DNA of 64,000 nt, taken from the NCBI RefSeq assembly GCF_963576615.1, contig NC_088708.1:47665196-47729195 (forward strand), given 5' to 3'. The translations under genes and the position numbers were made by a program. The notes beneath the pieces are model-generated. The model made no database searches and had not been told where the DNA came from. It saw only the letters and a list, made by a program, of their open reading frames with translations. Shown here piece after piece: positions 8,691-64,000 of the stretch. This DNA comes from Watersipora subatra. Lineage: Eukaryota > Bryozoa > Gymnolaemata > Cheilostomatida > Watersiporidae. The first letter of the stretch is position 1. Each line of letters starts with the position of its first letter.

Positions 8691-8810
8691 ACCATCAAAT
8701 CATGAATGCAGCATTATATCCATCAAACACACATACATTATTATATTCTGACTCAAAATAGTCAACAAAAATAATATTAATATCATATAATTCTTCATCT
8801 GCATCACAAT

Positions 8811-25505: not shown

Positions 25506-25659
25506 TTAAGAGATTGTCAGGTGTGCCAATCAAGTGTGGATAATAAGTAGCTGCACAATTATTCAGAACTACCTAAAGGAAGTCGATTGATGCAGGTGTT
25601 GGAGTGTCAGGCCCATCAATCCGAATGTCATGAGCTGGAGTCTTTTAGACTTTTAGACT

Positions 25660-27726: not shown

Positions 27727-27900
27727 TCACTTGCAGCATTTCTTCTTATTTTTAACTCTCTTGGCTCTTAGTTCAGGAGTGTCTTGCGTCACACCAGAAG
27801 CCTGCTCATTCAGTCTAATCACATCTGGAAGAGTCTTTTGTGGTTTGGTGAGCATTTCCATGCTATGCTTTATTGCTAGTTGAGTAATTTTTTCAAACGC
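27727..27900 (-). CDS. Rab35: Copy B exon 6 (C-terminal tail, CCK end)
   Basis: The exon is 174 nt and begins [17 protein letters not shown]. It ends [10 protein letters not shown] and TGA. In copy D the same place reads TGC TGC TAG TGA; here TAG has become AAG, so translation runs one Lys further to the adjacent TGA. Confidence 0.88.
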   Translation of the reverse strand, partial: AFEKITQLAIKHSMEMLTKPQKTLPDVIRLNEQASGVTQDTPELRAKRVKNKKKCCK

Positions 27901-30900
27901 CTAGAATACAAAAAAATATTTCATGGACCAATGGTGTTATCAAGGTGCTACCGAAATTTAAAAAGGAGTATTAGCATTATACAGAAGCACACATTCACCA
28001 TTGCCCAAACTGAAGAATTTGTCTTGGATGTTTCTTTTTCAAGGAATCGCAAAAGCTATATCTGCTATATCTGCTATATCTCTTATTACGAACGTAGATC
28101 CGTTCTTCTTTGCTTACAATTATGGTTCACTGAGACCAACAAAAACAGTTTGTTCAATTAAGTTTAGAATCAAAATGACCAGGCGCTAATGCAAACGACC
28201 TGCTCAATACTGCCATTTGATATCAGTTTTGGCTATTTTCAATAAGCGCCAATTGTTCTTGGAAGTAGCAATAATCACCATTGAGTAATTCCTGCCAGAT
28301 AATAGTCTGGTACAAAAATGTATACTTTATTATTGCATGAACAAATGCGACCACAGATGTTCTGTGGCTTTTGTGGCAAAATCTGTGGCTTTCTTTATTT
28401 TAAACACAAAAGTAACAAACAAAAAAGAACAGCGACAAATAAAGAGAGGGAGAAAAGAAGGAACAGAGAGCGAGAATAGAGAGAGAGTGTTGGGACAGAG
28501 ATAGATAGCAAAAGAAAGAGAGAAAGAAGGATCAAATGGAGATTGAAAAGAAAAAGCGAGCAAAAGAGAAAAAAACAAAGGATGTAGAAAAAAAAGTTTG
28601 GTCAAAAGTTGAAAAATTGATAGAGGATTCAATGAAGGAAATGTGTTGTTAATGAGAATTCACTTTGAAATTCTCTCTTAAAATTCACCATGATTTGATA
28701 TTTTAAGAGAGAGTTATACGTTGATCCAAAAAAAGCTGCAAAAGCTTTTCAATATGTTTTATTGCTATTACACGAGCTATTGTGATGTAAAATATACACT
28801 AAACATTCCATCGTAGTACTTCCGGAAAAAGATGCCTTGCTCTAGTCTTGTTGCAAATAGTCTTTGCAGAGAATCTATTGATTGCTTTGAAGGTTAGTTG
28901 CTATCTCATATCTTTTTGTTACCTGTTCAACATTTGTGTTCTTTTTGGCACTTGCTTCAAATAAGGGAATACCCTCTTGTTTAGAAAAGTTGCGAGCACC
29001 ACGAGTTGGAACTTCTTTTTCCTCTGGGTTATCATTTTTGCTTCCAACTAAAATACAAGAATAAGAGTTTAAAGTAGCACACCTTTATCATGCCATGCGA
29101 TATATGCTATGGAGTCAAATTCGTTAGAATAATTCTCACTATAGCAAAAAACCACGGTTGAAAGTTGAAAAAAAAGAAAACATCATTCAAAATTTGAGCT
29201 CACGCTTTCCAGCATGGTCGACGCTCTAACAACTGCAAAACTTTGCCATTTTTAGACACGTAGAAATAATTGCAGACTTATTCTCTGTGCTTTATTTAAA
29301 CTCAAATTTCTAAAACATTGTTTCTAACTGAATAAACAAAAACCAGAAATCGGTCTCAAGCCAATGGGAATTAAGGGAATCTCATTTGCCTTCACAAGCA
29401 ACTAAGATAGTCAAATAAAACTACGATTGGGCTTTATAATGTATCATGCAGAATACCATTATTGGACAACCAATCTTCATATTTATTAATAAATAAAGTT
29501 TACTAACCCAATATTTTTGGAACATCGGGACAATATTTATCCACTTCCTGTAACCACTTCGGGATGTTTGTAAAAGAGCAGATATCCTGTGTGTCATACA
29601 CTAAAATCACTCCATGTGTTCCCCGATATAGCCTGCAAACACAGAATCATCCATGCAGCTATAGAAAGAATCAATTCTTGATTTACTCTGACACCATTAT
29701 TCTGACCTACAGCCTTTTTTATTACTATTTCTTCACTGAAATATCTTGTGATTATGGTAGAAATAGCATGGACACATTGCTGTTATCATCTAAAGTTTAA
29801 TTTTTCATAGTTTACAATACGCCCATGCCTCCGAGGTTTCCATAATTTAATCTGTTGGATTCATGCACTTACAGGTGATTCAAGAATGCTTTTTACTTAC
29901 TGATTTGCTTACTATGATCCTTTTTTAAAAGATCAATACTTTCTCTCAGAAGCTGTTTTATTTTATAAAATTATTAGAGGAAAAAAATATCCTACATCAA
30001 AATTTGCTCATGACAACAACAAATGCATAGCTACTGTTTAGTTAGCCTCTCTTGACAAATTTTTGTTTTTGCGGAGTTGTCCCCCGCCGAGCGGGCAAGC
30101 AGCACAACAGCCTTTCACAAGACATACTGCACCTGATGCATCAGCTACACTTATAGGGAGTTGTTCTGTTCCGTCTATGCGGCTTGGTTACGATGTTATG
30201 TCGGTCGCTCCATTGGTAATCATAACTGATTTCGCGCAACAAATTATGTAGAAAAAAATAAGATTACAACGTTTAATCGTTCGATCGAGCCTATATTCAA
30301 TGCACAAAGAATAATAGAACTTTGAAAAACAGAGTGTCAAAAGTATGTCCTGCAATAAAAAAAACACTTGGTTGCGGTTTCCACAATGTGATGTCGTAAT
30401 TATTATTTGGCCTTAGGTCGTTGATCCTTTTCGCTGCCACTGAGGCTGCGCTTTTCCGTGACAATCGGTGCTGTTAAACCCAGAGAGCGCTAATAATAAA
30501 CTAGGATTCTAAATAATCAACACTGCCCGGGGATCATGGTAATGCCCGACCAATACAAACACATGTTCTGGGTTAATTAATTATGCTTCAATAAATATAC
30601 TGCCGTTGATAAAAGTTATGAAATCCCATCAATTAAATTGTGACCTGCAGTGGCGTAACTCTAGGACTATATGTCAATTGCAATTGAAATTAATTAGTCT
30701 CAGTCGTTCCCCTCAACATCTCAATAAAAAGAGAGAGCTAGTGCATAATATCATTGGGAAAACAGAGTATGGTGCTTGAAATCTGAGTTATTTATCATAG
30801 AAACAATCTGCACATGGAGAGCTAATGACACTGATTCCTTTGTCATTTTTATTGGTTTTCGGGAGTTGTCCTACCTTCGCCTGCCAGTAGCGTCATTATC

Positions 30901-33900
30901 GTAGTTGATAAATATAAGCGGTAAGCAATAAAATAAGCGGTAAGACCACACAACACCAAATATGAAAATTGTGGCGTCACAATGTTCGAGCCTAAACCAT
31001 TGAACATTTCTGCGGTAGAGCTCTGGGGAAATCCTATAAACACCAACCAATGTCTGCCTCACCATGTCAAACAATGGCCCATTTAAAAGCCAAGATATTG
31101 AAAAACTTGAATGAGCTGAAACAGTACTTATTTAACTGAGGTGCTTTAAATACCCTAGGACACTTATGCATTCGCGCCATCTAACTTTTGCGGATTTGCG
31201 GAGTCATCCTCTCGCGAACATTTTATGAGCAAAACTAAACAATCATAACAAATGAGCAAAAACCCAAAATTAAATAGCTTTGTTCATTGATAGCCACAAT
31301 AAAATCGTCATATTAGAAATGCAGGTAATTTTCGTGTGTGGTGTGGTTGGCTCATTGGGCAATTTCTGCTAAACTCGTTATAGCTAATACACCGGCTGAG
31401 CAGCATGGCAAAGCAAATTAAGATAACAAGTTTTTTTGGAGAAGCCAAAAATTAATAATAATAGTTAATAATAAATTTAGTTATTATACTTTTGTTCATC
31501 GATTAAATCAAATCACCATTCGTTTCCTTAACAAAAAAAGTCGATGAGTAATTGTCTTCCTCTTCTGCTTTTGTTGATAAGATACTGTCAAGACATCTTC
31601 CATGTCAGGGGTCTAAAATTCTCGATAAACATGAAATCCTCTCAACCCACAAGTGAAATCAAACTGAGCCATGGCCACCACGTGCTATAAATACATGAGA
31701 TCTAATATTGGTACCACATCAGTCAAGGCGGCAGGGACCTAGACGATAGTCTAGGTCCATTGGTAGTCTAAGAAACAAATGGCAGCAAGCGATCAAGTTG
31801 CATTATCGATCTTGCCTACACATTTCTACCTGTGGTTCACAAATACAAACTAGTCCCAAATTGAAAACTTTTTCCTAACCAGTAAACTGGACCTGAGGAA
31901 TCTAATTATGTTTGTTCCACAGCATTTGTTTTCACATCACCATATTTTCGAGCTCATCAGAGCTGCGAAATTAAGTAGCTGCGAAATTTTACTCTATATG
32001 CTACTCACGAAATTAAATACTAGCGAAATATAAGTGTCCTAGGGTATATCTCTTTACCTTTATTATGCATTTGTTTGTTCCAAAAAGGTCAACTCTGTAT
32101 TACCTATAGGTCAACTATACGCATTAGTCCACCAAAATAATGGCATTGTGTCTGTCTAAATTCTAACTCATGATCATTAGTATTAACCTAGCATTATTTG
32201 TTCTTAAATACTATAATACAGATATGTTTATTGCAATAAATGCCATAAATTTATGTTTATGGCATTAAATTGGCAAAAATCTAATGTTATTTCAATTAAA
32301 TAAATCATTGGCAAGGTTTATGGGAAATACTGAAAGAATAACACTTTACTGAGAGTAGAGTACAAACTGTTACTAAAGAATGCAATATAAATAAGGTATT
32401 CAAAAGTGAGAAGTTTATGTATAGACAAGCACATGCTGAAGATGCTTGTACAGGTGTGAGTTTAGAGAAAGGAACACGCATTTATATTTGCAGTCCATAT
32501 TTTATAGTAAGACGAGCAATAACTTTTCATCAGCAACAAGTTTCTTTTTTCAACCTTGTACTATGTCAGCAATTATGTTTATTTTATATAATCTTGTTAA
32601 AACAGGAGTTTGTTGCATAAAGTCGCATGCAATAAATAATATATATTAATCATGCATAACTCATAAATACTTACGTAGATGTGATTGCTCTGAAATTCTC
32701 TTGCCCAGCCGTATCCCAGATTAATAGTTTGCACTTTGTTCCATCCGCTTCTACTATTTTTCTCTTATAGTCAATACCAATTGTGTGAACATGGTATTCT
32801 GAAATATTTCAAGTGTATAAAAACTTAGTTTTGTCACTCTATTTTTACCATAGCTACAAAAAACATCTCACAAGCAAATAATCATGGTAACAACGCAAGA
32901 TCCTGTTTTAGACCGCAGATAGAAAAATATTATGAAGGTGCACAAACACAAAGATTTTTTAAGGATTAACTGGCAGCCCAAATTTTTATGACACTAGCAG
33001 GAGCAGGTAAAATTACAGATTATTGTTTGAATAGTATATTGAACAGATTTTACCAACGTTTTCAAGTCGTGAAAATGAACGGTAAGACTTGTGATCTTAG
33101 CAAATTACTGACCAAAAATGGCTGCAATTCTATATGATTATATCAAAATTTTCATTTCTTTAAAAATCAATTGGTTCAAATCTTTATTAATAAAAAGAGA
33201 GCACGCATTAAAAGGTTTTAAACACATGATTTTCAAAATGGCTCATTTTTTTTGTTAGTGAGGGAAGAGTGCCTTGTTAGATGTAGACACATTCAAGCTC
33301 ATTGGTTTTAAATTCACGCATTAGCTATATTATACATCTACGTTTTGCCAAAAAATGACTTCTTTAGGTTCCAGTTTGGAGCTTCCATTGCGAGTGTTTG
33401 TGTCTCCAAAGCTAGTTCTTGTTCTGATATCAACATGATGGCTGAAAAATTAAATATCGTAATTATAATGATATAAATAGATGTAATAGTAAAATGCTGT
33501 CAATTAGCTTTTAAAATGTCAGGAAAAGGCTCACCATACTATCAAATATAGCTAACATATCGACTTGCGAAATGGTGAGTGACCTATGTTCATGTATGTT
33601 ATTTAACATTGTTCAGCTTTCATTTGATACTGACTAATGACCATGTAGTAGGTTAAAACCTGCTACTTGTGTTTTAATAAAGCTCTTGTTCCTTTTATTC
33701 TTTCTGGAAAGTCACACTGAGAGTTATTGAGAATGAGTAGACTTCTATACCGGTATAATAGCAAGGGCTATTTGAAGAGCTGGCAGATTCTCAAGAAGTG
33801 GTTTTATTTTTTTTTCTTTAGATCAGGTTAAGCTAGTTGTATGGTTAAAATAGCTTAATAGACTTTGTTGTCTACATACGTACTTGCTTAGCCCAGTCTG

Positions 33901-36900
33901 TAAAAATAGAATTCACTCTGCCACTAGTTGTCTAAGACTCGCTGTAGAGGCTGACTCCGCATAAATTATTTCTAGGGATAACGGCTAGCTGTTTTATACA
34001 TTTCCTATCTTTCCTTTAGTTATTTCAAGAGAACACAAGTTTTTTTGTATATTTCTGTCCATATTGCAAAACAATAAAGTAAACTGATATTAAAAACAAA
34101 ATTGAAGACCAACAGGTGTGAAACAATTTGAAAGAATTAAAAGTTTATTAAGTATTTCATTGATGATAGAAAGCCGAAGACCTACAATATCAATCTTCAA
34201 TCAGGGGCAGGTAAGTAAATGATTAAGGGAAAAGACAACACTTACCACTGAATGTATGCTCTGTATATTGATAAACTAAACTGGTCTTCCCAACTCCTAC
34301 AAAATCAAAAATATTTTATTGAACACTTCATTTTATGACAAACTAGTACATTTGGCAATTCCATGAACCGTGAGAGATTGTAATGAGTAATCAGTGTATG
34401 CATCATTAATTTGGGAAGTGGCAAGGAGGTGGAGTAGGGCAGCGGTTAAAGCGAAAGATCACAAATTGGAGTACCTGAGTTCATTTCTTGAGCAAAGCAA
34501 TTTTTGTCGCGAGCGCTGTTTGCATGGCTCTTAACAGATGTATGAACGCTGCCCTTATCATAGTGGAGACTAGTTGAATGTCTAGCGTCACTCGAGTAAT
34601 CAAAAACCTTTGCACAGAAGACATTTTTTAATTTAACATAATGCAACGTTTACGATTCTAACTTTTAAACTTCCTATCATGAAAAGAGTGTTTTTGTGCA
34701 GCTCAAATAAATTAAGAAAAAAAAAACAATGAACACATGGAAGTGTTCATATAAAAAAGGTTACTGTTACAGCAGAAGCTCTTTGTATTCGAAGTTTTAA
34801 TGGACGATACTGATACCTCCCGAGACTGGCACAAACGCAAAATATAGATATTGGACTGTCTTTGTCTGATATTTTGACTGACCAAACGAAGAGAGAATGT
34901 AGAGGCATTTCCTACACCAAATAATCCAATTTTTTACATGAAAAGCCTTTATCTTTTACAGACTTTCTAATACCGGAAATATTAGTGTAATGGCACATTT
35001 TAAATTGAAAATTACAAATCAGAAAAATAGGTCATAGTAAAAACCTTAGTTTTCAAAGAAGTTTAGAAAAATTACAAATGAAAAATGTAATATCAATTAA
35101 TAATAAATGTGCACATTTATCGTCTGCAATCGCCAAAAGGATATATGTACAGTATAGGGTAAGAGCAATAGGAATGATAAGAACGGCTTAGGCTTGTGGT
35201 TATGCGCGCTTGTTAAGAGATTTGCAATATAGATGTGACAAATTCATTACGAAGGTGACTTTTTATTGCTATAACTTGAATATATAGCACAGATCGTCAT
35301 TTGTCCTCCGTTTGGGCGGACAGATAGCATACAGACAATGAACAGACAACAGATGTATGACAGACAGACAGGCGACAGACGGACCATGAACAAACAACGG
35401 ACAGACGACGACCAGTCAAAAGACAGATGACGGACATACGCCGGACTGATGACGGGCAAGCAACGGGCAGACGACGGACAGACGACAGACAAATGACGGG
35501 CAGACGACGGACATACGCCGGACTGATGATGGACAAACACTTAGATTTATATATATTGATTACTGAATGCCCGGCGTTCCCCGGATAATAAAAAAGTATT
35601 TGCACAGAACATTTATTTTTATATAACATGTAACAAAAGTGGCCATTTTAATTTTCAAACTTCATCTAATGAGAAAAGTGTTTTTACAGTTCAAATAAAT
35701 GGAGAGAAAAAATGAAACAACTGCGAAGGTTTTCAAACTTTTTCAAATAGCTGTAACTTTTAAGCTTCATATCAGGAAAAAAAATGGTTCATGCCGTTGA
35801 AATAAATTAAGAAAAAAAAATTACACAACTGTAAAAATGTTTGAATGTAAATGTGAAATAATTAGCAAGTAATGGCTAAATAAAGTCTGTTTTCCTATAT
35901 GTTTACAAGGAAGAATTACTTAATATACAATGATGCGATTTTAATTCATTTCAGTGTTGACATTGACAACGCAAAATGTTGTATAAAGTAGCATAGATAA
36001 CCCTAGTAAATATTTAAGGCGAACAACCTCTCATAAAAATTGTCAAAGTGTTGAATATGTTCTGTACATATTAAAAGTTAGTAACAAAACAATATCCTAA
36101 CTTTAGTAACTATAGTTACCTACAGTATACTTAGTGTATTTAGTGGTTATGATCTGCAGACAAATGTAACATTACAATGTGCAGTACATACCATGGAAAG
36201 TTCTTATGTTACAGACATATAAAATAAACATTGAGTTTAATTTAAATGAATTCAACTTACTAGACACTTAAAACTGAGTTTTAGTATGTATTTTCCTAAA
36301 GTAAACTTCTACTTTGCCATAGGCTAAAATTTTATTCCATATCTGTTTTCAGTTTTGTTCTTACCATAACTTATAATGCTGAACTGAGATAACGAGCATC
36401 GTATTTCCTTCAAGCGTTGTGGGAGCGAATTGCATATTGGCATTTTTGTTGTTTTGATGCAATCAATGCAATGACTGCTAAATTTTATTTTTGAGAAAAA
36501 ATTTTCTTGATATAGTAAAGAGGGAGACAAGAGGGCACACTGTAATAATTAATAATTTTTTGTGTGCAATCATGAAAAAGACATACAATATATGGTGAGA
36601 GCGATGAGTACGGTAAGAACCGCTTAGCCTTGTGGTTACCGCTTAGCCTTAGCCTTTGGGAGTTCAAATCCAGTACTTATTATATTTTTCATTTTTTTTT
36701 TGGTTATTTTTTGTTGCTAAAACTTTATCGCTATAAATAGAAATATACACAACAGACTAAAATTTATGTATATATGTACTAGTTGAATGCCCGGCGTTGT
36801 CTGGGTAATAAAAGTCTTTGCACAGAAAATAGATTTTTACCTAATATATAACACAGTTACCATTTTAACTTTCAAACTTTATATCATGAGAAAAGTGTTT

Positions 36901-39900
36901 TGTGCAGTTTAAATAAATTAAGAGAAAAAATAAAACAACTGTAAAGGTTTTCAAACTTTGTCAAAACTATGATCGGGTATATCTACTAGTTGCGCTACCT
37001 GGCGTTGCCCGGGTAATAAAAAAGTCTTTGGTTAGAAAATTGATTTGTATTTAACATACATGTACAACAACATTTGCCATTCTAACTTTCCAACTGCATA
37101 TCATGAGAAAAGCGTTTTGTGTAATTGAAATAAATTAAGAGAGAAAATAAAAACAACTGTAAAAGTTTTCAAACTTTGTCAAACAACTTTTAAACTTCAG
37201 ATCATGAGAAAAATGTTTCGTGTAGGTCAGATAAAAAAAATAAAGTGACTATAGAAAGGTTTGGATACAAATGTGAAATAATTAGCAAGTAATAACTAAA
37301 TTAAGTCGGTTCTGCTACGATTACAATAAAAGATGATTCAGTAATGGTACAATTAATACGAACTGAGAAAACAAAATAAAAATCCAGAATATGTTAAATT
37401 AACAACAATTCTTGCATAGAAATGCGTGTGTATAAAAAGCCTACTGTTCCACCAGAAGCTATCCATCAAAACTTTGAATACGACAATACTGGTACCTCTC
37501 GATATTGGAGCAAATGTAAAAATTAGATATCGCACCGTCTTTGTCTGGTACTTTGTCTGACCGAACGGAGAGAAAATGTAGAGGCTAGTCCTACTCGAGA
37601 TAATACAATTATCCACGTAAAAAGTATTAGCCTTTACCGATTCAGCAATCAAACCTTACAAAAAATCGAAAATGGAAGTGTAATGGCACATTTGAAATTA
37701 AAACGGCACATTTAAATATTACAAATTTAAAAAGTAGGTAATCGTAGAAAAAAATTAGTTTTTAAACAATTTCAAAAAATAAAAATTGCAAAAGGTAATT
37801 TTAGTTAATAATCAAAAGCGCTCATTTAGTGTGGTCATACGGTATACGCTATATGACAAGAGCTATAGAATGCTAAGCTCTTTATAGCTCAGTGGTTAGG
37901 TGCATGGTTTGAAAATTGCAATTGCACCCTTCAATAGTTCAAATTCTGCACGTTGTGAGCTTTTTATTTTATGATTTTACTAGCTATAACTGGGAAGACA
38001 GACCACAGGCGACAAACTTTGATATTCACGCATATACATGTGTATAAATTGGTATCGACTCCAATCTTATTTATCCTGAGTCATAGTTGCAGAAAGTTGA
38101 ATTGACAGACAGAAAAAAATGCCCAGACTGTGACAGTGTTTGAAGTTAGCTTAGTACAGATTCGTTTAGTTTACACATGATTGATGTAAAAAATTGTTCA
38201 AGTTCTTCAGAAAATATACACAAAAAACTATTTAAAAGTGATTTATTTAATTAATTACATCTTATTTATCAGTTTCATGTTTATAAGTGATTATAGTTCT
38301 AAAGTGAGTAGCGGCTGTACATTAAGTCTGAGCGCAGGGTTGAAAGAGACATTTTCACCATAACCAGGATATTTTAAGTTGAGCTGAATTAAACAGCACA
38401 ATAAACTGTATTAGGTGAGTTTTAGGTGGTTGTGAGCTCCCCTCGTGTTTTTTTACAATTACTTTCCGGCCTAAGTAATTTTCATTAACCGGACACGGTG
38501 TGCCTCTTTCATGGAGAAAATACTCTTAAAATTATGCTCTCTGGCTTTAAAATTTTTTAGACATCATGATACAGATCTGGAGGCTCTAGAAATTTAACAA
38601 GAATTTTCTTTACATCTTCTTTTACCAGCGGTACTTTTGTATCAAAGCTAATTCTCTAGTTAAACAAACCTCACAAGATAAGCACAGAATAGTTGTAAGA
38701 GGCATCTGCTAGAGTTGGCCAGAGTATACTTATTCATATACAATTTGGTTGGCTGGCACAGACACTAATACAAGCAGGCAGTTCAGAAACAATAATAATT
38801 CCTGTCCATAAGCAGCAGGCTAGTCCAAGCAATGGATAATAAATAACAGCTAGTAGTGGTGTTAGTAGACAATAATTCTAATGGATAATAAAAAGGTTTT
38901 GCCTAATTTATAATGCCTTTCAGAAGAGAAACACATAGTTCATGAGTTTTTCCACTTGAAGGTTTACTTGCAACAAAATTCACATAACAGCTATTTGGTA
39001 TCAAAAGGTTAACCATGTCTTACTCTGCGGTGTTGTAGGTTCAAAATATGTGGAAATGTGGTTAAACGCTCTTAAAAACTCGAAAACGAACAGCTAATCG
39101 CAGCCATCATGAAAGTTCGGTAGTTTGGAATTTCTTTATTCAATGATGTACTCAACTCAACGTATATATTGTTTTGACATGTGATGTTATCACATGAAAT
39201 TAAAGACCAATAAAAGGCTCAATATAAAACGTCTCGTAGCAATAGTTTATGACAAACACTTCGGGTTCTACCGGAAAGCCCGTATCAATTATAGATACTC
39301 TCTATTTTACAGTTTTTTTTCAGCCTGGTCTAATCATCTAGTTGTAATCTAATCATGTTACCCATACTTCCTGCCAAATGACGCAAACATATTCTGCAGC
39401 ATTTTTGCGACTATCACAGATGATGACTTGCACCCCTTCGAGCTAAAGTTAAAAAATTAAACGAATTTTTACGGTAGGTTTTGAGATATCAGTGCTCAAG
39501 GTGACTGCATTACAATGATGATGAAATAGACGCGTAAGGACAATAGACATGGCTTTATGAATGCGTGAAGTATATTTGTAAAAACATTTCGACGAATGAG
39601 ATTGCATGAACGTGTAAACAGAAGCCATCGTGTTCAACTATGTCCCATTTGAGCCGTCTTGAAAAGGGATTCCAAGACATGGTGAGTCTTTTGATACCAA
39701 ATAACTATAATGTGAATTTTTATGTGAGATTATTAGCTACTTCAAGGAATTGTCTTTACTTCCATCTTGAGTCTGGGTGTTCGACATCATGTGAGAACTG
39801 TGGGGTTCTGTCTGTTTATGTTTAGAATTTAAAGAGTGTTTTCTACAAATACCAGTGTTTGACCAGCTGCATGTGCTTTTGCTACGCTTGTATAAACTTG

Positions 39901-41713
39901 TAGCAGCATTTGAGAGAAATTTCATTGTTGGTGTCAGATATTTAGCTACCTTAGCTCTAATACTGGTTTTTTATTGCAAAGTTAAGGGTTTTTAACACTA
40001 CTACTGGCCACCATGATTGCTGTCATCCTAGTTTGGGAAGTTGTCAGCCAACCTGTGTAAGTACAGGCAATCTAAGCTGCCAAGTTAAGCGTACACTCTC
40101 CATCATTTGCTGTTAGCAAGTGAGAAAGCAAGAAAGAGAATGCATGCAATGTTTAGTCTATTCATATAAATCTCTGTGTTTCTACTTGTCTGTTAGTTAT
40201 TCTTGTTGTCATTCTAAAGTTTTAGGAATGAGAAATTGGCTTCGCACAGGATTTGACTTCGGAACCTTAAGTTATAATAACTGCTTTTATTATAGTCAGA
40301 TTAACTAGCTTAAATTACTCAAATTCGTTGGGTAAAAAAACTTAGCCAATTAAAAATAATAAAAATATTATTATTATATACCCATGCAATGCCAGGCATT
40401 GCATTAGTAACATTATATGCAATCTTTTCTGCAATGCCAGACATTCACCTAGTCTATATATATATATTTCTCAAAGTGTGTCATTTGTAGGATTGATTGT
40501 CCGGCTATAGATCTTAAAATCTTGGAATAAATATTCTGTACCGAAAAGGATCCGATCTTGGACCCTATCATTCACCAGTCTGACACCTTACCCACTAGAC
40601 TACAGAAATCGAATTGCTAGCTTGCCAATCTAAGTCATTATATAAGAGCAAATACCTACTGCTTTGCATATGACGCGGGTCATAGAATAACGTCACGAGA
40701 AACTGTTCGCTCACATTATTAAACTGACTAATGGCGAGCAACTCTCACTACTTCTCATTGTTTATAAGACAAAACACTTTTCTCATGATATGTAGTTTGA
40801 AAGTTAAAATGGCAAATGTTGTTATATGTTAAATACAAATCAATTTTCTGTCCAAAGACTTTTCTATTACTCGGGCAACGCCGGGTGGCTCAGCTAGTAA
40901 TATTATATGCAGTTTTTCCTGCAATGCCAGGCATTCACTTAGTAATATTATATGCAGTCTTCTCAGGTTTACAATTTGTTGATACTGCAAAAAAGAAACA
41001 GTAGAGCATTAGGCTCTTTTCAATCAAAAATCAGTAAATTAGACAGCGATGTCGATGCTCTAACTAGTAATTGAGTGAATTCCTTAACGACGAAAATCTT
41101 TGAAATCGCAGACAACTTTTTCTACTGGCAATAACATTTGTTATGACCTATATAAAAATTTTATGCTAATGATTGGCCAAAGAAGAGATATTATATTTAT
41201 CATTTGTGAACTCTTTTCATATGTATCACTATACATGTCACAAATAGAGCACCCGCTCGAATCTGAGCATTTCAAAAAAAAACAGCAAAGCCGTAGGCTC
41301 TTTTCAACCAAAATTATTTTGACTTCAGCTTAATTATTAATCAACCTCATCCAGTGTCTATATTGTTTATATCTCTACTGCCTGATATAAGCTTTAGAAG
41401 TTATACTCTATGATTGGGTGCTGCTGCGATGCACTGAAGAATATTTTGTTTTTGACTTGAAATTTGAATGAGCCCAAAAAATAACTTGCAACTTATAAGC
41501 TTTCGAATGCAAGAGAGTAAAAATAGCGCATTTTGGACTTGAGTTACGTGTAAAAGAAGAAGAATGTCGGAAACTGTACATTTATATATAGCAGCATTAA
41601 ACGTGTTGATATAGTGTAAGTATAAGGGATAACTAGCGTACTAACCACTATCTCCAAGGACCACCATCTTTAAGATATAATCATATTCTTCAGCATCTTT
41701 CCTTGCGGCCATT
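27727..41713 (-). CDS. Rab35: Rab35-like small GTPase, copy B (complete, six exons)
   Basis: Exons: 41647-41713, 34246-34296, 32675-32798, 29508-29632, 28923-29047, 27727-27900. These total 666 nt, or 221 residues plus stop; Rab35 is about 201. Motifs in order: P-loop GDSGVGKTS, switch [17 protein letters not shown] with the GTPase Gln, [13 protein letters not shown], a G4 box reading SKND instead of NKND, G5 EASAK, and a polybasic tail ending KKKCCK. The family cycles between GDP and GTP on recycling and plasma membranes and is anchored by geranylgeranylated C-terminal cysteines. All junctions are GT-AG and in phase, with no stops or frameshifts. Two changes are notable: Asn to Ser in G4, and a one-residue extension past CC. 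It may be expressed with altered nucleotide binding. Confidence 0.85.
27901..28922 (-). other. Copy B intron 5 with purine-rich tract
   Basis: The 1022-bp intron is collinear with copy D intron 5. On the plus strand, 28430-28600 is almost pure purine (GAGAGGGAGAAAAGAAGG-like), hence a pyrimidine tract on the gene strand. The 100-codon ORF over it is an artefact. Confidence 0.65.
28923..29047 (-). CDS. Rab35: Copy B exon 5 (G4 SKND, G5 EASAK)
   Basis: The exon is 125 nt, phase 1 in and phase 0 out. It encodes [20 protein letters not shown], then [17 protein letters not shown]. The acceptor is ATTTTAG and the donor is CAG|GTAACA. Confidence 0.88.
29048..29507 (-). other. Copy B intron 4
   Basis: The 460-bp intron is collinear with copy D intron 4 except for the Tigger-like MITE present only in D. 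It shows the empty site for that MITE near 29280. Confidence 0.6.
29508..29632 (-). CDS. Rab35: Copy B exon 4 ([13 protein letters not shown])
   Basis: The exon is 125 nt, phase 2 in and phase 1 out. It encodes [16 protein letters not shown] and ends YCPDVPKIL. The THG after the YRG and the DVPKIL segment are close to Rab35. The donor is G|GTTAGT. Confidence 0.88.
30046..30250. mobile_element. Single arm of the 48.6-49.3 kb fold-back family
   Basis: It starts near CTTGACAAATTTTTG and matches the left arm of 48631-49304 (GCGGAGTTGTCC, CTGATGCATCAGCT, TCCGTCTATGCGGCTTGG). The inverse arm is absent. Confidence 0.7.
31153..32044. mobile_element. TA-target MITE, CCCTAGGACACTTA ends, 892 bp
   Basis: The inverted ends CCCTAGGACACTTATGCATT and AATATAAGTGTCCTAGGG have TA outside each. 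Copy C (49695) and copy A (about 752) show the uninterrupted AAATATATC. Subterminal TTCGCG motifs resemble the CCCTACAGG element of copy A. Confidence 0.85.
32675..32798 (-). CDS. Rab35: Copy B exon 3 (switch [10 protein letters not shown])
   Basis: The exon is 124 nt, phase 1 in and phase 2 out. It encodes [10 protein letters not shown], then [18 protein letters not shown]. Arg of QERF is Asn here. The donor is AC|GTAAGTA. Confidence 0.88.
32799..34245 (-). other. Copy B intron 2
   Basis: The 1.45-kb intron is collinear with copies A and C. It holds a single copy of the sequence that forms the 60-bp array in C. Nothing coding. Confidence 0.6.
34246..34296 (-). CDS. Rab35: Copy B exon 2 (P-loop)
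   Basis: The exon is 51 nt, phase 1/1, encoding [17 protein letters not shown]. The acceptor is TTTGTAG and the donor is AGTG|GTAAGTG. It is single copy. Confidence 0.88.
34600..34760. repeat. CCCGG-family dispersed repeat, truncated
   Basis: It shares CTTTGCACAGAA, ATCATGAAAAGAGTGTTTTT and CAAATAAATTAAGA with 35560-37260, but lacks the GCCCGG head. Confidence 0.5.
35300..35545. repeat. Degenerate GACAGACGACGG minisatellite
   Basis: Tandem variants of GACGGACAGACGAC, interspersed with CATACGCCGGACTGATGA twice. Ser/Arg/Cys-rich minus-strand ORFs over it are artefacts. Confidence 0.85.
35560..35860 (+). repeat. CCCGG-family dispersed repeat
   Basis: It starts TGAATGCCCGGCGTTCCCCG followed by ATAATAAAAAAGT, then the body TTTGCACAGAACATT. 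The GCCCGGCGTTGCCCGGG-type head is a short palindrome shared by all full members. Confidence 0.7.
36600..36690 (+). repeat. tRNA-like SINE fragment
   Basis: CTTAGCCTTGTGGTTACCGC (A-box-like) is followed by GGGAGTTCAAATCCAG (B-box-like). It resembles 35180-35230. No complete cloverleaf, so not a tRNA gene. Confidence 0.35.
36776..37260 (+). repeat. Two tandem CCCGG-family repeats
   Basis: Heads lie at 36782 (TTGAATGCCCGGCGTTGTCT) and 36990 (CTACCTGGCGTTGCCCGGGT). Each is followed by the same TAATAAAA-AAGTCTTTG body. The first copy is truncated by the second. Confidence 0.75.
37866..37950 (+). repeat. tRNA-derived SINE-like fragment
   Basis: TAGCTCAGTGGTTAGGTGCA is a good A box and AGTTCAAATTCTGC a B-box relative 50 nt later. 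The anticodon arm does not pair convincingly. Confidence 0.4.
38960..39724. mobile_element. TTAA long-TIR MITE in copy B intron 1, ends damaged
   Basis: The left end AGGTTTACTTGCAACAAAAT follows TTGA. The internal region matches the other copies. The right arm is internally deleted and its tip lost near 39724. Confidence 0.7.
40548..40625 (-). repeat. tRNA-derived SINE-like fragment (minus)
   Basis: On the minus strand, TAGTCTAGTGGGTAAGGTGT (A box) precedes GGTCCAAGATCGG (B-box-like). Flanked by CCCGG-family pieces. Confidence 0.4.
40755..40905 (-). repeat. CCCGG-family repeat, reversed
   Basis: Ends ATTACTCGGGCAACGCCGGG. The body is the inverse of 57120-57050. Confidence 0.7.
41647..41713 (-). 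CDS. Rab35: Copy B exon 1 with start codon
   Basis: ATG is at 41713. It encodes [20 protein letters not shown] and DS plus one base of Gly; donor G|GTTAGT. The frame stays open upstream (KTLAELKEA), as in copies A and C, but the GCACAG acceptor-like site 5' of the ATG, the conserved Met and the Rab N-terminus favour this start. Confidence 0.87.
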
Positions 41714-45240: not shown

Positions 45241-45417
45241 CCATCGAATCCAAACTAAGGCGGTCTCATGTGGCTGCGATTAACTGTTCGTTTTTGAGCT
45301 TTTAAGAGCTTGTAATCACATTCCCATATATTTTGCACCTACAACACAACCGAGTAAAACATAGTGAATCTTGTGATACTAAATAACTGTAATGTGAATT
45401 TTGTTGCAAGTCAACCT
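45241..45417. mobile_element. TTAA long-TIR MITE, right arm
   Basis: Ends GTTGCAAGTCAACCT followed by TTAA (45418-45421). Only the right arm is present, abutting the AT tract. Confidence 0.75.
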
Positions 45418-45421
45418 TTAA

Positions 45422-48380: not shown

Positions 48381-48433
48381 AGATATCCTGTGTGTCATAC
48401 ACTAAAATTACTCCATGTGTTTCCCGATATAGT
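48381..48433 (-). pseudogene. Copy C exon 4 fragment
   Basis: Acceptor GCTGGCAG, then [17 protein letters not shown]. Gly of YRGTHG is Glu. Homology to B and D ends after DTQDI at GATATCTTTATAAG, and the frame then runs into unrelated sequence. Confidence 0.8.
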
Positions 48434-49971: not shown

Positions 49972-50095
49972 GTAGATGTTATTGATCTGAATTGCTCTTG
50001 TCCAGCTGTATCCCAGATAAATAATTTGCACTTTTTTCCATTTGTGTCTACTATTTTTCTCTTATAGTCGATACCGAGTGTGGTGATATGCGATT
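49972..50095 (-). pseudogene. Copy C exon 3
   Basis: The exon is 124 nt in the standard phase. It encodes [14 protein letters not shown] and [16 protein letters not shown]. The donor AC|GTAAGTA is intact and there is no stop. Confidence 0.85.
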
Positions 50096-51540
50096 CTGAA
50101 ATATTTCATGCGTATAATAACTTAGTTTATTCACTCTACCATTACCATAGTTACAAAACACATCTCACAAGCCAATAACCATGGTAACAATGCAGGATGC
50201 TGGTTCAGGCTGCAGATAGAAGAATATTATAAAGGTACACAGACACAATACTTTTAAAGGGTTAACTGGCAGCACAAATTTTATGGCACTAACAGGAGCA
50301 GATAACATTACAGATTCACTTTCAACAATAGTTAATTTTTAGAGACGATATTTTAAATTTCTTATTTGTGTGAAGGAAGAATGTCCCGCTAGCACACTTT
50401 TCAAGATTTACACAAGCCGATTAGTGTAATTTTATAACCATCCCTCAAAATGTTATGCGGGAGGTATAAGTACAGTGCAAACTTTGTCATTATTTGTAGA
50501 ATCTGTTTCACACTTGTGTTATAATTATCTGCTTGCTGGCTAACCAAAACATGTAGCTTCATGACTAAATGGGAAAATCTATTAAAACGGCAGACAACAT
50601 AGACGCTTGTCTTACATACATGCATTGGCTATATTATACGTCTATGTTTTACCAAAAACTGACCTTTTAATGTTTCAGTTTATAGCTTGCATTGCGACTG
50701 TTTGTGTCTCCGAAGCTAGTTTTTAATTTGACATCAAAGTCATGGCTAAAAACCAAAATATATCATATTTATGTTGATATAAATAGATATAATATTAAAT
50801 TCTGTCAATTAGCTTTTAAAATATCAAGAACAGGCTCACCATACTATCAAATATATCTAACATATCAACTTGCAAAATGATGAGTGATCTATGTCCATGT
50901 AAGTCATTTAGTATTGTTTAGTTTCGTTACTTTACACATTTTGGCTTTTACCATCTTGGCTAAATGGCTATTGACTAATGACCATTTAGTAGACTGAAAC
51001 CTGCTACTTGTGTTGTAATAAAGCTCTTATTCCTTTTAGTTTTTCTGGCAAGTCACACTGAGAGTTATAGGAAATGTGTAGACTTCTATATGGGTATAAT
51101 AGCAAGGGCTATTTCAGGAGCTGGCTGATCCTTGTGCCAGTGTTTTGCTGCTGCGTATCTAGTTAAGCTAGTTGTATACTTAAAATAGTTTAACATAGTT
51201 TGTCGTACATACTACATACGTACTTGCGCAATCTACACTCCGCAAAAAAAAGAATTTAAAGGTTGCCTTCACATCAATTTCTTCGAAAAATAACGGCTAG
51301 CTGTTTTATACATGTTTTAACTTGCAATTAATTTTCTTAAAGGATCACGAATTCGTTTTTGTATATTAGTCCATATTGCAAAACAATCAAGTAAACTGAC
51401 ATTAAAAGCAACATTGAAGACCAATAGCTGTAAAATAACTCAGACAAACTACAAGTTGGTCAAGTATGTCTTTGATGATAGAGCAGAAGACATACAATGT
51501 AAACATTCAATCAGCTGCAGGTAACTAGAGGATGAAGGGA
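50096..51540 (-). other. Copy C intron 2 outside the array
   Basis: It is collinear with copy B 32799-34200. Nothing coding. Confidence 0.55.
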
Positions 51541-52380
51541 TAAGATAACACTTACCACTGTATGTGTGATCTGTATATTGGTCAGAAGATGATTAAGGGA
51601 TAAGATAACACTTACCACTGAATGTATGATCTGTATAATGATAAGTAAATGATTAAGGGATAAGATAACACTTACCACTGAATGTATGTTCTGTATATTG
51701 ATAAGTAGATGATTAAGGGATAAGACAACACTTACCACTGAATGTATGATCTGTATATTGGTAAGTAGATGATTAAGGGATAAGATAATACTTACCACTG
51801 AATGTATGTTCTGTATATTGGTAAGTAGATGATTAAGAGATAAGACAACACTTACCATTGAATGTATGATCTGTATATTGATAAGTAGATGATTAAGAGA
51901 TGAGACAATACTTACCACTGAATGTATGATCTGTATATTGATAAGTAGATGATTAAGGGGTAAGATAACACTTACCACTGAATGTATGTTCTGTATATTG
52001 GTAAGTAGATGATTAAGGGATAAGATAACACTTACCACTGAATGTATGTTCTGTATATTGATAAGTAGATGATTAAGGAATAAGACAACACTTACCACTG
52101 AATGTATGTTCTGTATATTGGTAAGTAGATGGTTAAGGGATAAGATAACACTTACCATTGTATGTATGTTCTGTATATTGGTAAGAAGATGATTAAGGGA
52201 TAAGACAACACTTACCACTGAATGTATGCTCTGTATATTGGTAAGTAGATAATTAAGGGATAACACAACATTTACCACTGAATGTATGTTCTGTATATTG
52301 GTAAGTAGATGGTTAAAAGATAAGATAACACTTACCACTGAATGTATGATCTGCATATTGATAGACTAAACTTGTCTTTC
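51541..52380 (-). repeat. 60-bp array made from exon 2, its splice donor and intron 2
   Basis: Fourteen units of exactly 60 bp. On the gene strand each reads (C)AATATACAG, then ATCATACATTCAGTG, then GTAAGTG, then an intron segment CTTATCCCTTAATCATCTAC. The innermost unit (52321-52380) is the true exon 2 3' end and donor; the other 13 lie downstream in the intron. The donor is GTAAGT in all but the unit at 52261 (GTAAAT). Units differ by a few substitutions with no indels. Copies A and B have one unit. A 281-codon ORF across it is in a different frame from Rab and is an artefact of the 60-bp period. Confidence 0.95.
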
Positions 52381-52386
52381 CAACCC
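52336..52386 (-). pseudogene. Copy C exon 2 (true copy)
   Basis: Acceptor TTTCATAG, then [17 protein letters not shown], donor AGTG|GTAAGTG. It is the only unit of the array with the P-loop-coding 5' half. Confidence 0.87.
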
Positions 52387-53359: not shown

Positions 53360-53426
53360 CATTATCTCCAATGACCACCAGCTTTATGATATAATCATAT
53401 TCCTCAGCATCTTACCTAGCCGCCAT
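53360..53426 (-). pseudogene. Copy C exon 1 with in-frame stop
   Basis: ATG GCG GCT AGG TAA GAT, then EEYDYIIKLVVIGDN. The change that made TAA also made a near-consensus donor AG|GTAAGA inside the exon. Its use would give an 11-nt coding segment in the wrong phase for exon 2. Confidence 0.85.
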
Positions 53427-57586: not shown

Positions 57587-59115
57587 CCATAAAGCCTTTA
57601 GTTGAATGCCATAGCACTCTTTTTTCAGCCCTTCCTACATGTATATAGTAGTTAGTGCTTTATTAGAGATGACAATAAAGGGTGGCATTTTATTTTTCAA
57701 ACACTTGGTCAGAATTTTCAAAAGATAAATTTAATCCTCTCACAGCCAAAATGAATGTTGCCTATATTTTGCAGTCTCCTCTGGCAGAGCGACATTAACC
57801 CTTGTAAATGCAAGAAATTTGCTAACTTACCTCCAAATTGTCGCAGATCTCTAAATAAATTTGCACTGGTAGAGACATGTATTAGCATGTCTCTACCAGT
57901 GCTGATATCAACTGGTTGATATCAAATACTGGTAGATACCAGTTGATATCAACTCTCAACTGGTAGAGACATGCTGGTGCATGCATGTCTCTACCAGTTG
58001 ATTACAATCAACTTGCAATCTTATAGCCTGTGTTACAGTTTGTTGGAGCTTTCAAGTTTTTATTTCAATATAAATTTGAAAGCATATTTTTATTTTATAG
58101 TAACATTTAACAGTGTTTCATAAAAGCTCATTGCACTCATTGATAGGTTTTCTATAGTTTGCAGCCAAAGCTGGCTTTTCATGCCCAATAGAAAAGGAGT
58201 TATGAGCATCGATCCATTGTAAGCCGAGTTTATCTAACTGCAATAAAGCTATCAACCAATATGATATATTCCTATCTATAAGTTACATGTATATACTAAT
58301 AATCTATTAAATGCTAAAAATACATATATTCAAGAACAAGGGATATAAACAAACCATACTCACAACACATTCAAAAGCAAAAGTTCACATTTATAAAACA
58401 AAAATATTAGCATCATTTGCTCGTCTAGATGAGTTCTGAATTTTGCCTTTATTTGAAACCATTTCATATTTTTCTGGGAGTTCAATACCTTCCATAATGT
58501 CTTCTGACCTCAAATCTTTTTGCACAACTGAGCTAGTCGATATTAGTGTCCAAACCAATTTTTCGCAGAGCAGAACTTTTATGTGGTGCAATTTACACTT
58601 TCCACGCGAATAACGAGAAACTATGTGTAATCAAAATAGCCTCAAACTTTTAGCCTCAAAGCTCGTAGTAGCACAGATTCTATCAGAACTGCGAACAATT
58701 TTTTTTCATGTACATCAAAGTATCAAAAACTGCGTTAGGTAAGCAACTATTATTAGCCTGATACAGTTACTAATTGTATCTATGGTGTTGCATTCAAAAT
58801 TCCAACAGACAGAACTGTAAAGACTTAGAGTTGAAAAAACGGATTGCGATACAAACAGAAATAAGGAACAAGTTAATTGTTATTGATGTAATTGACTCAT
58901 TATTAGTACGGTTTCGTGGATACTTTTCCACTAATCACTTGCAATTATGCAATTATCAAAAATGCCAAATAGTTGCAGTCAAATATAAGTAGCATTCAAA
59001 TAGAAGTGAGGTTCAATTAAAGGATGGCGCTCTATTTGTCAACCCATCTTCCATAGTGTCACTCAAATAGAGGTGGCGTTCAAATAAAAGTGGCGTTTAA
59101 ATACAGGTTTTATGG
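57587..59115. mobile_element. TA-target DNA transposon, CCATAAA ends, 1.53 kb
   Basis: A relative of 3505-6265 without the nested insert. Ends CCATAAAGCCTTTAGTTGAA and ACAGGTTTTATGG with TA outside. It contains the compound palindrome at 57865-58000. Confidence 0.65.
57865..58000. repeat. Nested palindromes of ACTGGTAGAGACATG
   Basis: ACTGGTAGAGACATG and its inverse occur twice, around inner palindromes GATATCAACTGGTTGATATC and ACTGGTAGATACCAGT. The related element in copy A lacks this block. Confidence 0.9.
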
Positions 59116-60169: not shown

Positions 60170-60343
60170 CTAGCAGCATTTCTTCCTATCGTTTTTAATT
60201 TTTGTTGTTCCTTGCTCAGCATTGCTTCGAATCACACCAGAAGCCTGCTCATTCAGCGTAATCACATCTGGAGGCATCTCTTGTGGTTTGAGAAGCATTT
60301 CCATGCTATGCTTTATTGCTAATCGAGTTATTTCTTCGAACGC
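60170..60343 (-). CDS. Rab35: Copy D exon 6 (CC terminus)
   Basis: 174 nt, from [20 protein letters not shown] to IKNDRKKCC and TAG. The next codon is TGA, the stop used in copy B. Confidence 0.9.
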   Translation of the reverse strand, partial: AFEEITRLAIKHSMEMLLKPQEMPPDVITLNEQASGVIRSNAEQGTTKIKNDRKKCC

Positions 60344-62475
60344 CTGGAATACAAAAAGTATTTCATAGATCAAGGGTCTTATTAAGATGCTACAAAAATT
60401 GTAGAAAACAAACAAGGATTGTTATTATTATTATCTGGAAGCGCGCATTAAAATTGAAGCTCCCTTATCTCCGATTTTCCTTCTCTCCCTCTCTCCCTTC
60501 TCTCAATCTCCCAAGGGAGAGAAGGAGAGAAGAAGGAAGACCGGGGAGAAGGGAGAAAAAGGAAGGAAAGAAGGGAGACCGAGAGAAAGAAAAGAGGGAG
60601 AAAAAAAGTGATGAAAGGAAGGAGGGAATTAAGGAAAGAGAGGAGCGAGATAGAGAGAGAAAGCAAGCAGAGGCAAAAAAAGATATAGAAAAGAAAGTGT
60701 GATCAAAAGTTGAAAAAGTGATAGATGATTTAATAAGACGCATGTTGTGTTTGTGAAAATTCATCATTATGAATTTTTAAGAGAGAGTTATAAGTTGATT
60801 AAAAAAACTATAAAACCTTTTCAATATGTTTTATTGCTATTACAGGACCTATCGGGATGCAAAATCTACACTAAATATTCTATTGTAGTACTTTTGATGC
60901 CTTATTCTAGTTTTGTTGCAAATTGTCTTTGCAGTGAATCTATCCATTGCTCATAAGTTTAGTTGTTAACTATTATCTTTTTATTACCTGTTCAACGTTT
61001 GTATTCTCCTTGGCACTGGTTTCAAATAAGGGAATACCCTGTTGTTTAGAAAACCTGCGAGCATTGCGAGTCGAAACCACTTTTGTCTTTGAGTTATCAT
61101 TTTTGTTTCCCACTAAAATGGGAAAGGAAGAGTTAAGAGTAGCACATCATTATACCGTGCTATAAACCATTTGGATATATTAGAAGAGACAGTAGCATAG
61201 TCCACTTCATTGGAATAATCTGAACTATAACAAAAGCCACAGCTGGAAATTGAGAAAAAGATGACATACAGAATTTGAGTTCATGATTTCTTGCATGATC
61301 GACGCTCTAATAACTGCGTCAATATGCCATTTTTAGACATGTAGGAATAATTGTGGAAATACAGTCAAACATGGATAACTCACCCACGGATAGCTCGAAC
61401 ACATGGTCAACTTGAACGGTTTCTTTGGTCCGTTCCCACATAATGATAAATTGCTTTAGATAACTCGACCTCAACTTGGTTAACTCAAACAGTTTTTTGC
61501 CCAACGGCTACCGAGACGGTTGTTATCGCTTTAGAAAATCACTTTATTCCAAGTCATAGAGGTAAACCTCAACTTTTCGTAAATCATAGGCGTCGTTATT
61601 ACCACCATCGGCAAAATATTTTTGTCAACGACTTTTCTAAAGGTTTGGTGAATTTTGATTTTTACCAAACATCCGCTTAGCGATCGCCTTTCGAAAGCAT
61701 GGAAAAATGAGGTGACCTTCATATAAACTTCAAGAAAAATTGGCAAAATTGATCTCGGTTAAAACGCTCAAAGAAAAAGATGTCTTTTCTTCTGAGCATT
61801 TCAACAACGATCAAGTTTTGCCAATTTTAATCTAAAAAACGTCCTGGCAATAACATCACCTCAAACAACAAAACAATCTCAAGTGATAGAAAAATCTCCT
61901 ATACTTTTTGATAAAAAAGTTTTAAACTTTACATTAAAAGCATTTTATTTGAAACAAGCCATTTATGCTTTTGATTTCTATTATAGTTTGTATATGTGCA
62001 TGTATCTACTAATAAATAAATAAATACATGGACTTGTGACAGTGCTCTGATAACTTGAACGCTCTGATAACTCGAACACTTTTGCTCGGTCCCGTGAAGT
62101 TCGAGTTATCCATGTTTGACTGTACTTATTCTCTGTGCTCTGTTTAATCTCAAATTCCTAAAACATCTTGCTTCTAACTGAATAAGACCATAACCAGAAA
62201 TCTGTTTCATATTATGTAGGAATCGATGGCGATTCATGTGCAATTATACTAATCTGATAAGACTATGATTTCAGCTTTATAATGTATCATGCAGAATATC
62301 ACTATTGTGCAACCAATCTCCATATTTATCAATATAGCAAGTTTACTAACCCAATATTTTTGGAACATCATCACGATGCTTAGCTATTTCCTGTAACCAG
62401 TTGGGGATGTTTTGGAAACTACTGATATCCTGTGTGTCATATACTACAATCACTCCGTGTGTTCCCCGATAAAGC
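60170..62475 (-). CDS. Rab35: Rab35-like small GTPase, copy D (partial: exons 4-6)
   Basis: Exon 4 is at 62351-62475, exon 5 at 60988-61112, exon 6 at 60170-60343, each with the family length and phase. Product segments: [63 protein letters not shown], and a tail ending NDRKKCC. This is the most Rab35-like copy: canonical G4 NKND, G5 ETSAK, and a C-terminal CC for double geranylgeranylation. No stops or frameshifts; donors GTTAGT and GTAATA, acceptors GCAG, TTTTAG and CCAG. Exons 1-3 lie beyond the right edge. It is likely the least altered functional copy, by inference. Confidence 0.88.
60344..60987 (-). other. Copy D intron 5 with purine tract
   Basis: The 644-bp intron is collinear with copy B intron 5. 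Positions 60480-60715 are purine-rich on plus, with a small CT/GA hairpin at the left end. Lys/Glu-rich and Ser/Phe-rich ORFs over it are composition artefacts. Confidence 0.7.
60988..61112 (-). CDS. Rab35: Copy D exon 5 (NKND, ETSAK)
   Basis: 125 nt in the same phase as copy B. G4 NKND and G5 ETSAKEN are canonical. Acceptor CATTTTAG. Confidence 0.9.
61113..62350 (-). other. Copy D intron 4
   Basis: The 1238-bp intron is the 460-bp ancestral intron seen in copy B plus a 761-bp Tigger-like MITE. Confidence 0.65.
61362..62122. mobile_element. Tigger/pogo-like MITE, CAGTCAAACATGGATAACTC ends
   Basis: The left end CAGTCAAACATGGATAACTC is inverse to the right end GAGTTATCCATGTTTGACTG. TA lies outside each. 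GATAACTCGAAC repeats occur subterminally. Copy B lacks it at about 29280. The TIR resembles pogo/Tigger-type elements known across animals. No transposase. Confidence 0.85.
62351..62475 (-). CDS. Rab35: Copy D exon 4
   Basis: 125 nt, phase 2 in and phase 1 out. [16 protein letters not shown], then WLQEIAKHRDDVPKIL. Donor G|GTTAGT. Confidence 0.9.
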
Positions 62476-64000
62476 CTGCAAGTACAAAATCGGTCATGAA
62501 CTTATAAAGAGAATCAACTCTTGATTTATTCTGACACAATTATTTTGACCTACAGCCTTCTTTATTACTATTTCTTTACTAAAATATCTTGTGATTTTGA
62601 TAGACATAGCGTAGACACACTGTCGTTATCATCTAAAGGTTAAAGGTTGACTTGCAACAAAGTTCACATTACAGTTATTTGGTATCAAAATATTCGCCAT
62701 GTCAAACTCTGTTGGGTTGTAGGTGCAAAATATGTGGAAATGTGATTACAAACTCTTAAAAGCTCAAAAATGAACAGTTAATTGCAGCCATCAGAAAAAC
62801 GCTGTATGTACGTTGGAATCCCTCACCAAAACGGCTCAAATGGGACGTAGTTGAACACAATAGCTTTCATTTTCACTTTCATGCAAGCTCATTCGTCAAA
62901 ATATTTTCACAAATATATTTCACGCATTCAATAAAACCATGTCTATTGTGCTTACGCTTCTATTTCATCATCATTGTAATGCTGTCACTTTGAGCACTGG
63001 TATCTCAAAACCTACCATAAATATTCGTTTAATTTTTTTATCTTAGCTCGAAGGAGTGCATATCACCCTTTAATAAACATGACGAGTTTGTCGATCACCT
63101 TTGTGGTCGAAAAATGCTGTAGTAATTGTTTGTGCTATATGGGAGAAAATATGGATCACATGATCAGATTACGACTAGACGATTAGACCGAGCTGAAACG
63201 AAACTGTAAAGTAGCGAGCATCTACATATATTTGATAAGGGCTTTTGGTAGAACCCAAAGTGTTTGTCATAAACTAGTGCTACAAGACGTTTTATGTTGA
63301 GCCTTTTATTGGCCTTTCAATTCACATGATAACATAACGTGTCAAAACAATAATCACAATGGTAGAGTACGTCATCAAAATAAAGAGATTCCAACCTAAG
63401 GCGTTTTCGTGATGGCTACGATTACCTGTTCATTTTTTAGTTTTTGAGAGCTTTTAATCACATTTCCACATATTTTGCACCTACAACACAGCAGAGTAAG
63501 AAATGGTGAACCTTTTGATACCAAATAACTGTAATGTGAATTTTGTTGCAAGTCAATCTTTAACTTTTAATAGTTTACAATACGCCCATTTCTCTGAAAT
63601 TTCCATAATCTAGGCTGCTAGATTCATGCACTTACAGGTGATCCAAGAATGTTTTTTTTTCATGGGCTCACTATGAGCCTTTTTGAAAGAATCAATACTT
63701 TCTCTCAGAAGCTGTTTTACTATACAAACATTTTCTGAGGAAAAACTGTATCCACCAAACTTGGCTATCAAAAACACCAAATGCATATAAAAGTACAACA
63801 ACCAAATCGATCATATTATTCAATACAACAATCAAATGAATAAATGTTCTACAATGAAAGGATAAAAGGATCAAAGGATCAACGTTCTCTGATGAAGGAT
63901 GTAAATACATAACCATTATCAAGTGAAGAAATGAAATATATCAAAATTCTTAAATCAAGAGATTTAACACATCAGTATTCTTTCATGAAGAAATTCAATA
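62476..64000 (-). other. Copy D intron 3 (runs off right edge)
   Basis: It contains a complete TTAA MITE (62644-63559). The rest matches B and C intron 3 (TTCATGCACTTACAGGTGAT). Exons 3-1 were not reached. Confidence 0.65.
62644..63559. mobile_element. TTAA long-TIR MITE, complete, 916 bp
   Basis: TTAA at 62640-62643 and 63560-63563. Copies B (29797) and C (48605) have a single TTTAA(T/C)TTTT at the same place, proving TTAA as the duplicated target. Long inverted arms, no transposase frame. Confidence 0.92.

Follow-up and report, generated by a model that had tools for sequence, protein, structure and literature searches.

In the study of intron gain by tandem duplication, a duplication within a gene reportedly supplies extra splice-site sequence. 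Intron gain via tandem genomic duplication is one of the settings described so far (PMC4974935), and human ABCA7 offers another, where a VNTR in intron 18 has the exon 18 donor GT as its first two bases and consists of about 12 to 427 units of 25 bp (PMC5954066). Retention of one unit and skipping of exon 19 were both observed at ABCA7; splicing at the donor one unit downstream keeps that unit in the message and shifts it out of frame (PMC5954066). Variable internal tandem repeats at exon-intron boundaries have also been described in paralogs from human segmental duplications, with 27 intron modifications (PMC2812944, Genome Biol. 2009). In addition, exon 1 of oestrogen receptor alpha has comparable donors 33 nt apart and was put forward as a well-suited natural model for studying how donors are chosen, and the mechanism favouring the intron-proximal of two comparable 5' splice sites was called not known in the same text (PMC6002489, citing Roca et al. 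2013).

The minisatellite analyzed here belongs to this known, splice-site-bearing kind; it is ordinary in kind and forms a neat natural series. It lies in the cheilostome bryozoan Watersipora subatra, where each unit spans the border of exon 2 and intron 2 of a Rab35-like gene and the unit number varies among four paralogs of one genome (A, 1; B, 1; C, 14; D, 3). As in ABCA7, a tandem repeat of variable length sits right at the end of an exon and includes its donor. However, the ABCA7 unit is given as 25 bp and intronic (PMC5954066), whereas the W. subatra unit is 60 bp with 25 nt of coding exon, and its length variation is known between paralogs, not individuals. The segmental-duplication paralogs likewise have gaps in minisatellite copy number between recent paralogs at exon-intron borders; their average repeat is a 30-bp unit present four times, and RNA support was available (PMC2812944), whereas the W. 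subatra arrays are read from the genome sequence. In contrast to the described intron gains (PMC4974935), no new intron is formed here; the extra donors sit within an intron that was already present and lead into stops. The arrays share competing, comparable 5' splice sites with oestrogen receptor alpha, for which the published description gives two such sites and, in the text consulted, speaks of no tandem repeat (PMC6002489). No bryozoan was named among the titles listed by literature searches on tandem duplications, repeats, and tandem or decoy donors at splice sites, and a search on duplicated 5' splice sites and U1 competition found nothing. The W. subatra case differs from these in having a bryozoan host, in carrying coding sequence within its unit, and in forming a 1/1/14/3 series across four paralogs.

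We analyzed a window of 64,000 nucleotides (G000:C1:47665196-47729195 of the 783.7-Mb assembly). The genome paper gives an assembly of 783.70 Mb from PacBio HiFi reads, with RNA-seq under PRJEB62167 (PMC12902671). Within the window, TRF reported a repeat at 51520-52360 with a period of 60, 14.0 copies, 0% indels, and a score of 1360. Unit extraction placed 14 head-to-tail units of 60 bp at 51521..52360 on the minus strand, running from C01 (52360-52301) to C14 (51580-51521), and confirmed that copy C contains a real tandem array. Each unit joins the final 25 nt of exon 2 to the initial 35 nt of intron 2 in the Rab35-like gene. Tandem units of 10-100 bp are the mark of a minisatellite, and the repeats in C (60 bp × 14.0) and D (3 units) fall within this range. 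The original prediction of 14 indel-free units of 60 bp was borne out by these data, as were its single units in copies A and B. It had located the array at 51541-52380, where an array is indeed found, although the gene register is shifted by 20 nt, to 52360-51521 on the minus strand; the exon part, taken to be 15-20 nt, is actually 25 nt. The claim that nearly every unit keeps GTAAGT holds for the gene strand, where the word occurs 13 times between 51521 and 52360, but not for the plus strand, where it occurs 6 times.

The donor is retained in register in 13/14 units of C and 3/3 units of D, and TGGTAAGT is likewise kept in 13/14 units of C. C02 is the lone exception and reads GTAAAT in place of GTAAGT. 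On the gene strand, 5/14 units of C end in T. Pairwise differences between units average 5.45/60 over all pairs and 4.18/60 among C03-C12. A positional order within the array was rejected, as adjacent units are no more similar than distant ones: differences average 5.15/60 at a separation of one unit and 5.2-5.4 at separations of 4-8. They climb to 7.7-9.0 at separations of 11-13 (3, 2, and 1 pairs), which involve the outermost units, and divergence, expected under the preferred account to increase toward the array edges, shows a weak trend in that direction (Spearman -0.41, permutation p 0.08). When a two-unit query of 120 bp was compared with the 784-Mb genome, at least 11 matches were found, all at A-D (at least 7 in C, 2 in D, 1 in B, and 1 in A). 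An Rfam scan of the window returned no structured RNA at gathering score. Two other identities for the array were rejected. Recursive splice sites have the AG of a 3' splice site joined directly to the GT of a donor, and the consensus of the units reads CAGTG/GTAAGT, with AG and GT 2 nt apart. New coding repeats do not fit the in-frame stop present in 13/14 units of C and 3/3 units of D.

Copies A, B, and D are six-exon genes whose introns all have GT-AG borders and whose frames stay open for 222, 221, and 221 aa, respectively, and their products contain the Ras/Rab GTPase domain (PF00071; E 6e-57 for A, 5e-54 for B, and 1e-58 for D). Copy B occupies 27727..41712 on the minus strand, with its single unit at 34211..34270, and the single unit of copy A lies at 3104..3163, both also on the minus strand. 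Exons 4-6 of copy D are found at 60170..64000 (minus strand), and its exons 1-3 and array lie past the end of the window. The D model is identical over 221 aa to NCBI protein P0001, "ras-related protein Rab-35-like," and Rab-35 was the best PDB match of the D protein. The array of D, at 70523-70338 on the window scale (G000:C1:47735718-47735533), has three units with the same breakpoints as in C, the first of which (D1) holds a 6-nt insertion. Upstream of the window, NCBI P0003 (L008, L009) has another C-terminal end for copy A, at -12383 and -13216 on the window scale; it replaces exon 6 of A, which we found open at -7015.

Copy C, as judged from its exons, is a broken gene copy. Its exon 1 (53360..53426, minus strand) reads ATG GCG GCT AGG TAA, and the in-frame TAA at codon 5 (53414-53412) stands where A, B, and D have GAA, AAA, and AAG, respectively. 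Exon 2, defined by alignment to A, B, and D and by its AG and GT borders, is 51 nt long, encodes the P-loop GKT (52336..52386, minus strand), and uses the first donor of the array as its own. Exon 3 (WDTAGQE) follows at 49972..50095 and a remnant of exon 4 at 48382..48433, both on the minus strand; past about 48382, after 52 nt, this remnant no longer resembles exon 4 of the B and D copies. A tblastn search over 114 kb returned three matches each for exons 5 and 6, which belong to A, B, and D, and none for C. With the TAA at codon 5 and exon 4 cut after 52 nt, no open frame extends over all exons of C. The mutation that created the stop in exon 1 (53426-53360) also yielded CTAG/GTAAGA, a donor-like word within the exon. 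In contrast, NCBI P0002 strings together an upstream exon (57832..57888, minus strand), the portion of C exon 1 that lies past the stop, the second and third exons of C, and exons 4-6 of B, and this gene model suggests that C may persist as the front of a C-B fusion. The P0002 exon begins just past the GTAAG of C exon 1 and does not use GTAAGA as a donor. Both P0001 and P0002 cross an array, and both are predicted models that splice at the first donor.

Other repeats were observed in the window. Intron 3 of copy C contains an inverted repeat at 48642-49304 with arms about 80% identical, partly matched in B near 30042-30276, which looks like a MITE-type insertion. A 14-bp satellite, ATCACATACCAACT, is present upstream of copy A in 20.5 copies (8803-9089). 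A dispersed repeat of about 150 bp, with window copies mostly 82-94% identical, occurs at 8534-8692, 12140-12280, 25351-25509, 38954-39137, 45262-45421, 54612-55513, and 62640-63563, and several times forms the paired inverted ends of a longer element.

The single-unit copies reveal the borders from which the unit was taken. On the exon side, CTAT (A) or TTAT (B) precedes CAATATACAG, and on the intron side ACTTAC is followed by CTGC. The array junction, ACTTAC/CAATATACAG, shares 1 nt; taking the T-ending units as the founder type raises this to 2 nt. The single-unit state of A and B is likely ancestral. The original prediction had proposed that microhomology between GATAGACTAAA in the exon and GATAAGTAGATGA in the intron could have seeded the array. 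This was rejected: the single-unit copies read GGTAAGT at this position, the junction shares 1-2 nt, and the GATAAGT used in the comparison is a variant inside the array. Its more general claim, a tandem amplification of the exon end, donor, and intron start, is supported. We propose that the 60-bp stretch over the exon 2/intron 2 border was duplicated in tandem in one of the four clustered paralogs, with 1-2 nt of junction homology, and that later growth and shrinkage by unequal exchange or slippage would have led to the 14 units in C and 3 in D.

The units of D closely resemble those of C. D1 (with its 6-nt insertion left out) and D3 both differ from C06 at 1/60 positions, and D2 differs from C11 at 1/60. 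In intron 2 past the array, by comparison, the two copies match at 179/267 positions across the first 320 columns. Sites dividing the four copies into two pairs were taken as informative. C and D were grouped at 6/8 such sites on the exon side (100 columns) versus 4/27 on the intron side (first 320 columns), a difference with Fisher p = 0.003 that comes from 8 and 27 sites in regions not fixed beforehand. Up to column 257, C goes with D at 0/20 sites, and on the exon side B goes with D at 4/4 sites in columns -130 to -107. The CD/BD/BC splits are 5/5/2 in the exon 1 region, 6/1/1 at the end of intron 1, 4/14/9 in the intron 2 flank, and 3/7/8 in the exon 3 region; over the four alignment pieces CD has 18, BD 27, and BC 20, with no clear winner. 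These mosaic flanks, in which C and D stand together mainly beside the array, suggest local gene conversion between the two copies. The array and about 50-100 bp of the adjoining exon 2 and intron 1 would have been swapped between C and D in one direction or the other. Part of the C-D likeness could be due to constraint, since the single-unit copies are also rather alike there; B and D2, for example, differ at 2/29 positions within the first 35 nt of the intron.

To describe what the extra units would mean for splicing, we compared the predicted pairing of each donor with U1. The real donor of exon 2 has a predicted pairing energy of -9.9 kcal/mol, stronger than that of the other four donors in A, B, and D alike. 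The decoys downstream of it are predicted at -9.9 to -10.2 kcal/mol for 12/13 in C and -9.9 for 2/2 in D, whereas the C02 decoy reaches only -5.3 kcal/mol. Nearly all extra units (12/13 in C and 2/2 in D) would thus put an equally strong predicted donor downstream of the real one, and the claim of 13 strong extra donors in C needs correction for C02 only. The donors are spaced in 60-nt steps, with one 66-nt step in D, and exon 2 would lengthen from 51 nt with the real donor to 117 or 177 nt with the decoys of D and to 111-831 nt with those of C. A 51-nt exon is close to the lower size limit of efficient exon recognition, and donors 2-3 could gain on size. Use of donor 2 or 3 in D leads to a stop at codon 43. 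In C, an in-frame TAA is present in units C01-C13 and absent from C14, and every decoy retains a stop because C01 is retained by every decoy. Since use of a decoy donor retains a stop, the array would be neutral at best and would lower the output of functional mRNA at worst. Some D transcripts would be expected to use donor 2 or 3 and then to be lost to nonsense-mediated decay. Fourteen units may be tolerated in the broken copy C, and D, with its open frame, has just three. The nonsense codon of C and its lack of most of exon 4 and of exons 5-6 weaken the idea that its array is a natural test of donor competition, but the idea stands for D, which is the better natural test of donor choice.

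The intronic end of the unit also resembles the 5' end of U1 snRNA. In copies A (3101..3109, minus strand) and B (34208..34216, minus strand), intron 2 contains ACTTACCTG, which equals 9 nt of the U1 5' end and can pair with the donor. The corresponding stretch in C reads ACTTACC six times and the wobble-compatible ACTTATC five times, both of which can pair with GGTAAGT. The U1 5' end reads AUACUUACCUG in the aligned locus L021. At least 42 matches to U1 snRNA genes were found in the genome; at G000:C5:45786606-45984104 (L021-L026 in part) many of them are about 1.37 kb or multiples of it apart, forming a tandem U1 array.

Several other explanations were weighed against duplication followed by conversion. 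Tandem arrays can be mis-assembled, and an assembly artefact, the least credible of the readings considered, is very unlikely because the units differ from one another (mean 5.45/60) and D holds a second array at a separate locus; moreover, the array is 840 bp long with distinguishable units, and the assembly is described as HiFi-based (PMC12902671). More weight is due to a single origin of the array that predates the divergence of the copies, with A and B later reduced to one unit and no conversion needed. An array that contracts to a single unit through unequal exchange bears no scar afterwards, and the array of C holds unit types like that of A (T12/G35) and that of B (G12/G35), with C03 differing from B at 3/60 positions. 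However, this reading does not sit well with units that are near-identical between C and D while the intron beyond them agrees at only 179/267 positions, nor with a C+D grouping found mainly adjoining the array. It also requires either two losses or a sister relationship of A and B, which is the least favoured split (18/65 sites). Overall, we regard an early array as rather unlikely.

A third explanation is that the units are kept for function, as self-masked decoy donors (a donor plus the U1-like ACTTACC) that tune the splicing of exon 2. The 9-nt match to the U1 5' end of W. subatra is present in intron 2 of A, B, and D, and all 19 unit donors of A-D have a predicted P(unpaired) below 0.01. 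In every copy exon 2 likewise has the donor with the highest opening energy (five donors compared in A, B, and D, three in C), but shuffling equalled or surpassed this energy in 1/200 trials for A, 25/200 for B, 34/200 for D, and 106/200 for C. Counted by cells, the donor word is less variable than the remainder of the unit (1/112 versus 45/728, Fisher p 0.02), yet by variable columns it is unremarkable (1/8 versus 23/52, p 0.13). The pairing partner ACTTAC is the most altered part of the unit in C (9/84 cells, with five changes wobble-compatible), and the biggest array sits in a broken copy. Taken together, selection for such decoys appears improbable. As the shuffle control was clearly positive in A only, a donor-masking hairpin was rejected as a conserved device, and the hairpin, as modelled, is a lead only. 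An extended form of the idea is very doubtful: the unit would be a self-masking 5' splice site, in which the donor is accompanied, inside the 60 bp or at their end, by 7-9 nt copied from the 5' arm of U1 snRNA, the length of the array would set U1 capture or exclusion at exon 2, and arrays would be swapped between paralogs.

The preferred account, which we consider probable as a whole, is that a stretch over an exon-intron border was duplicated, that the array grew and shrank, that conversion acted between C and D, and that the resulting decoys lead into stops and are tolerated in the broken copy C. Four paralogs in one genome with 1, 1, 3, and 14 near-identical donors form a series in which RNA-seq could reveal the donors used. 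The locus also presents a possible example of a splice-site array being spread among paralogs by local exchange.
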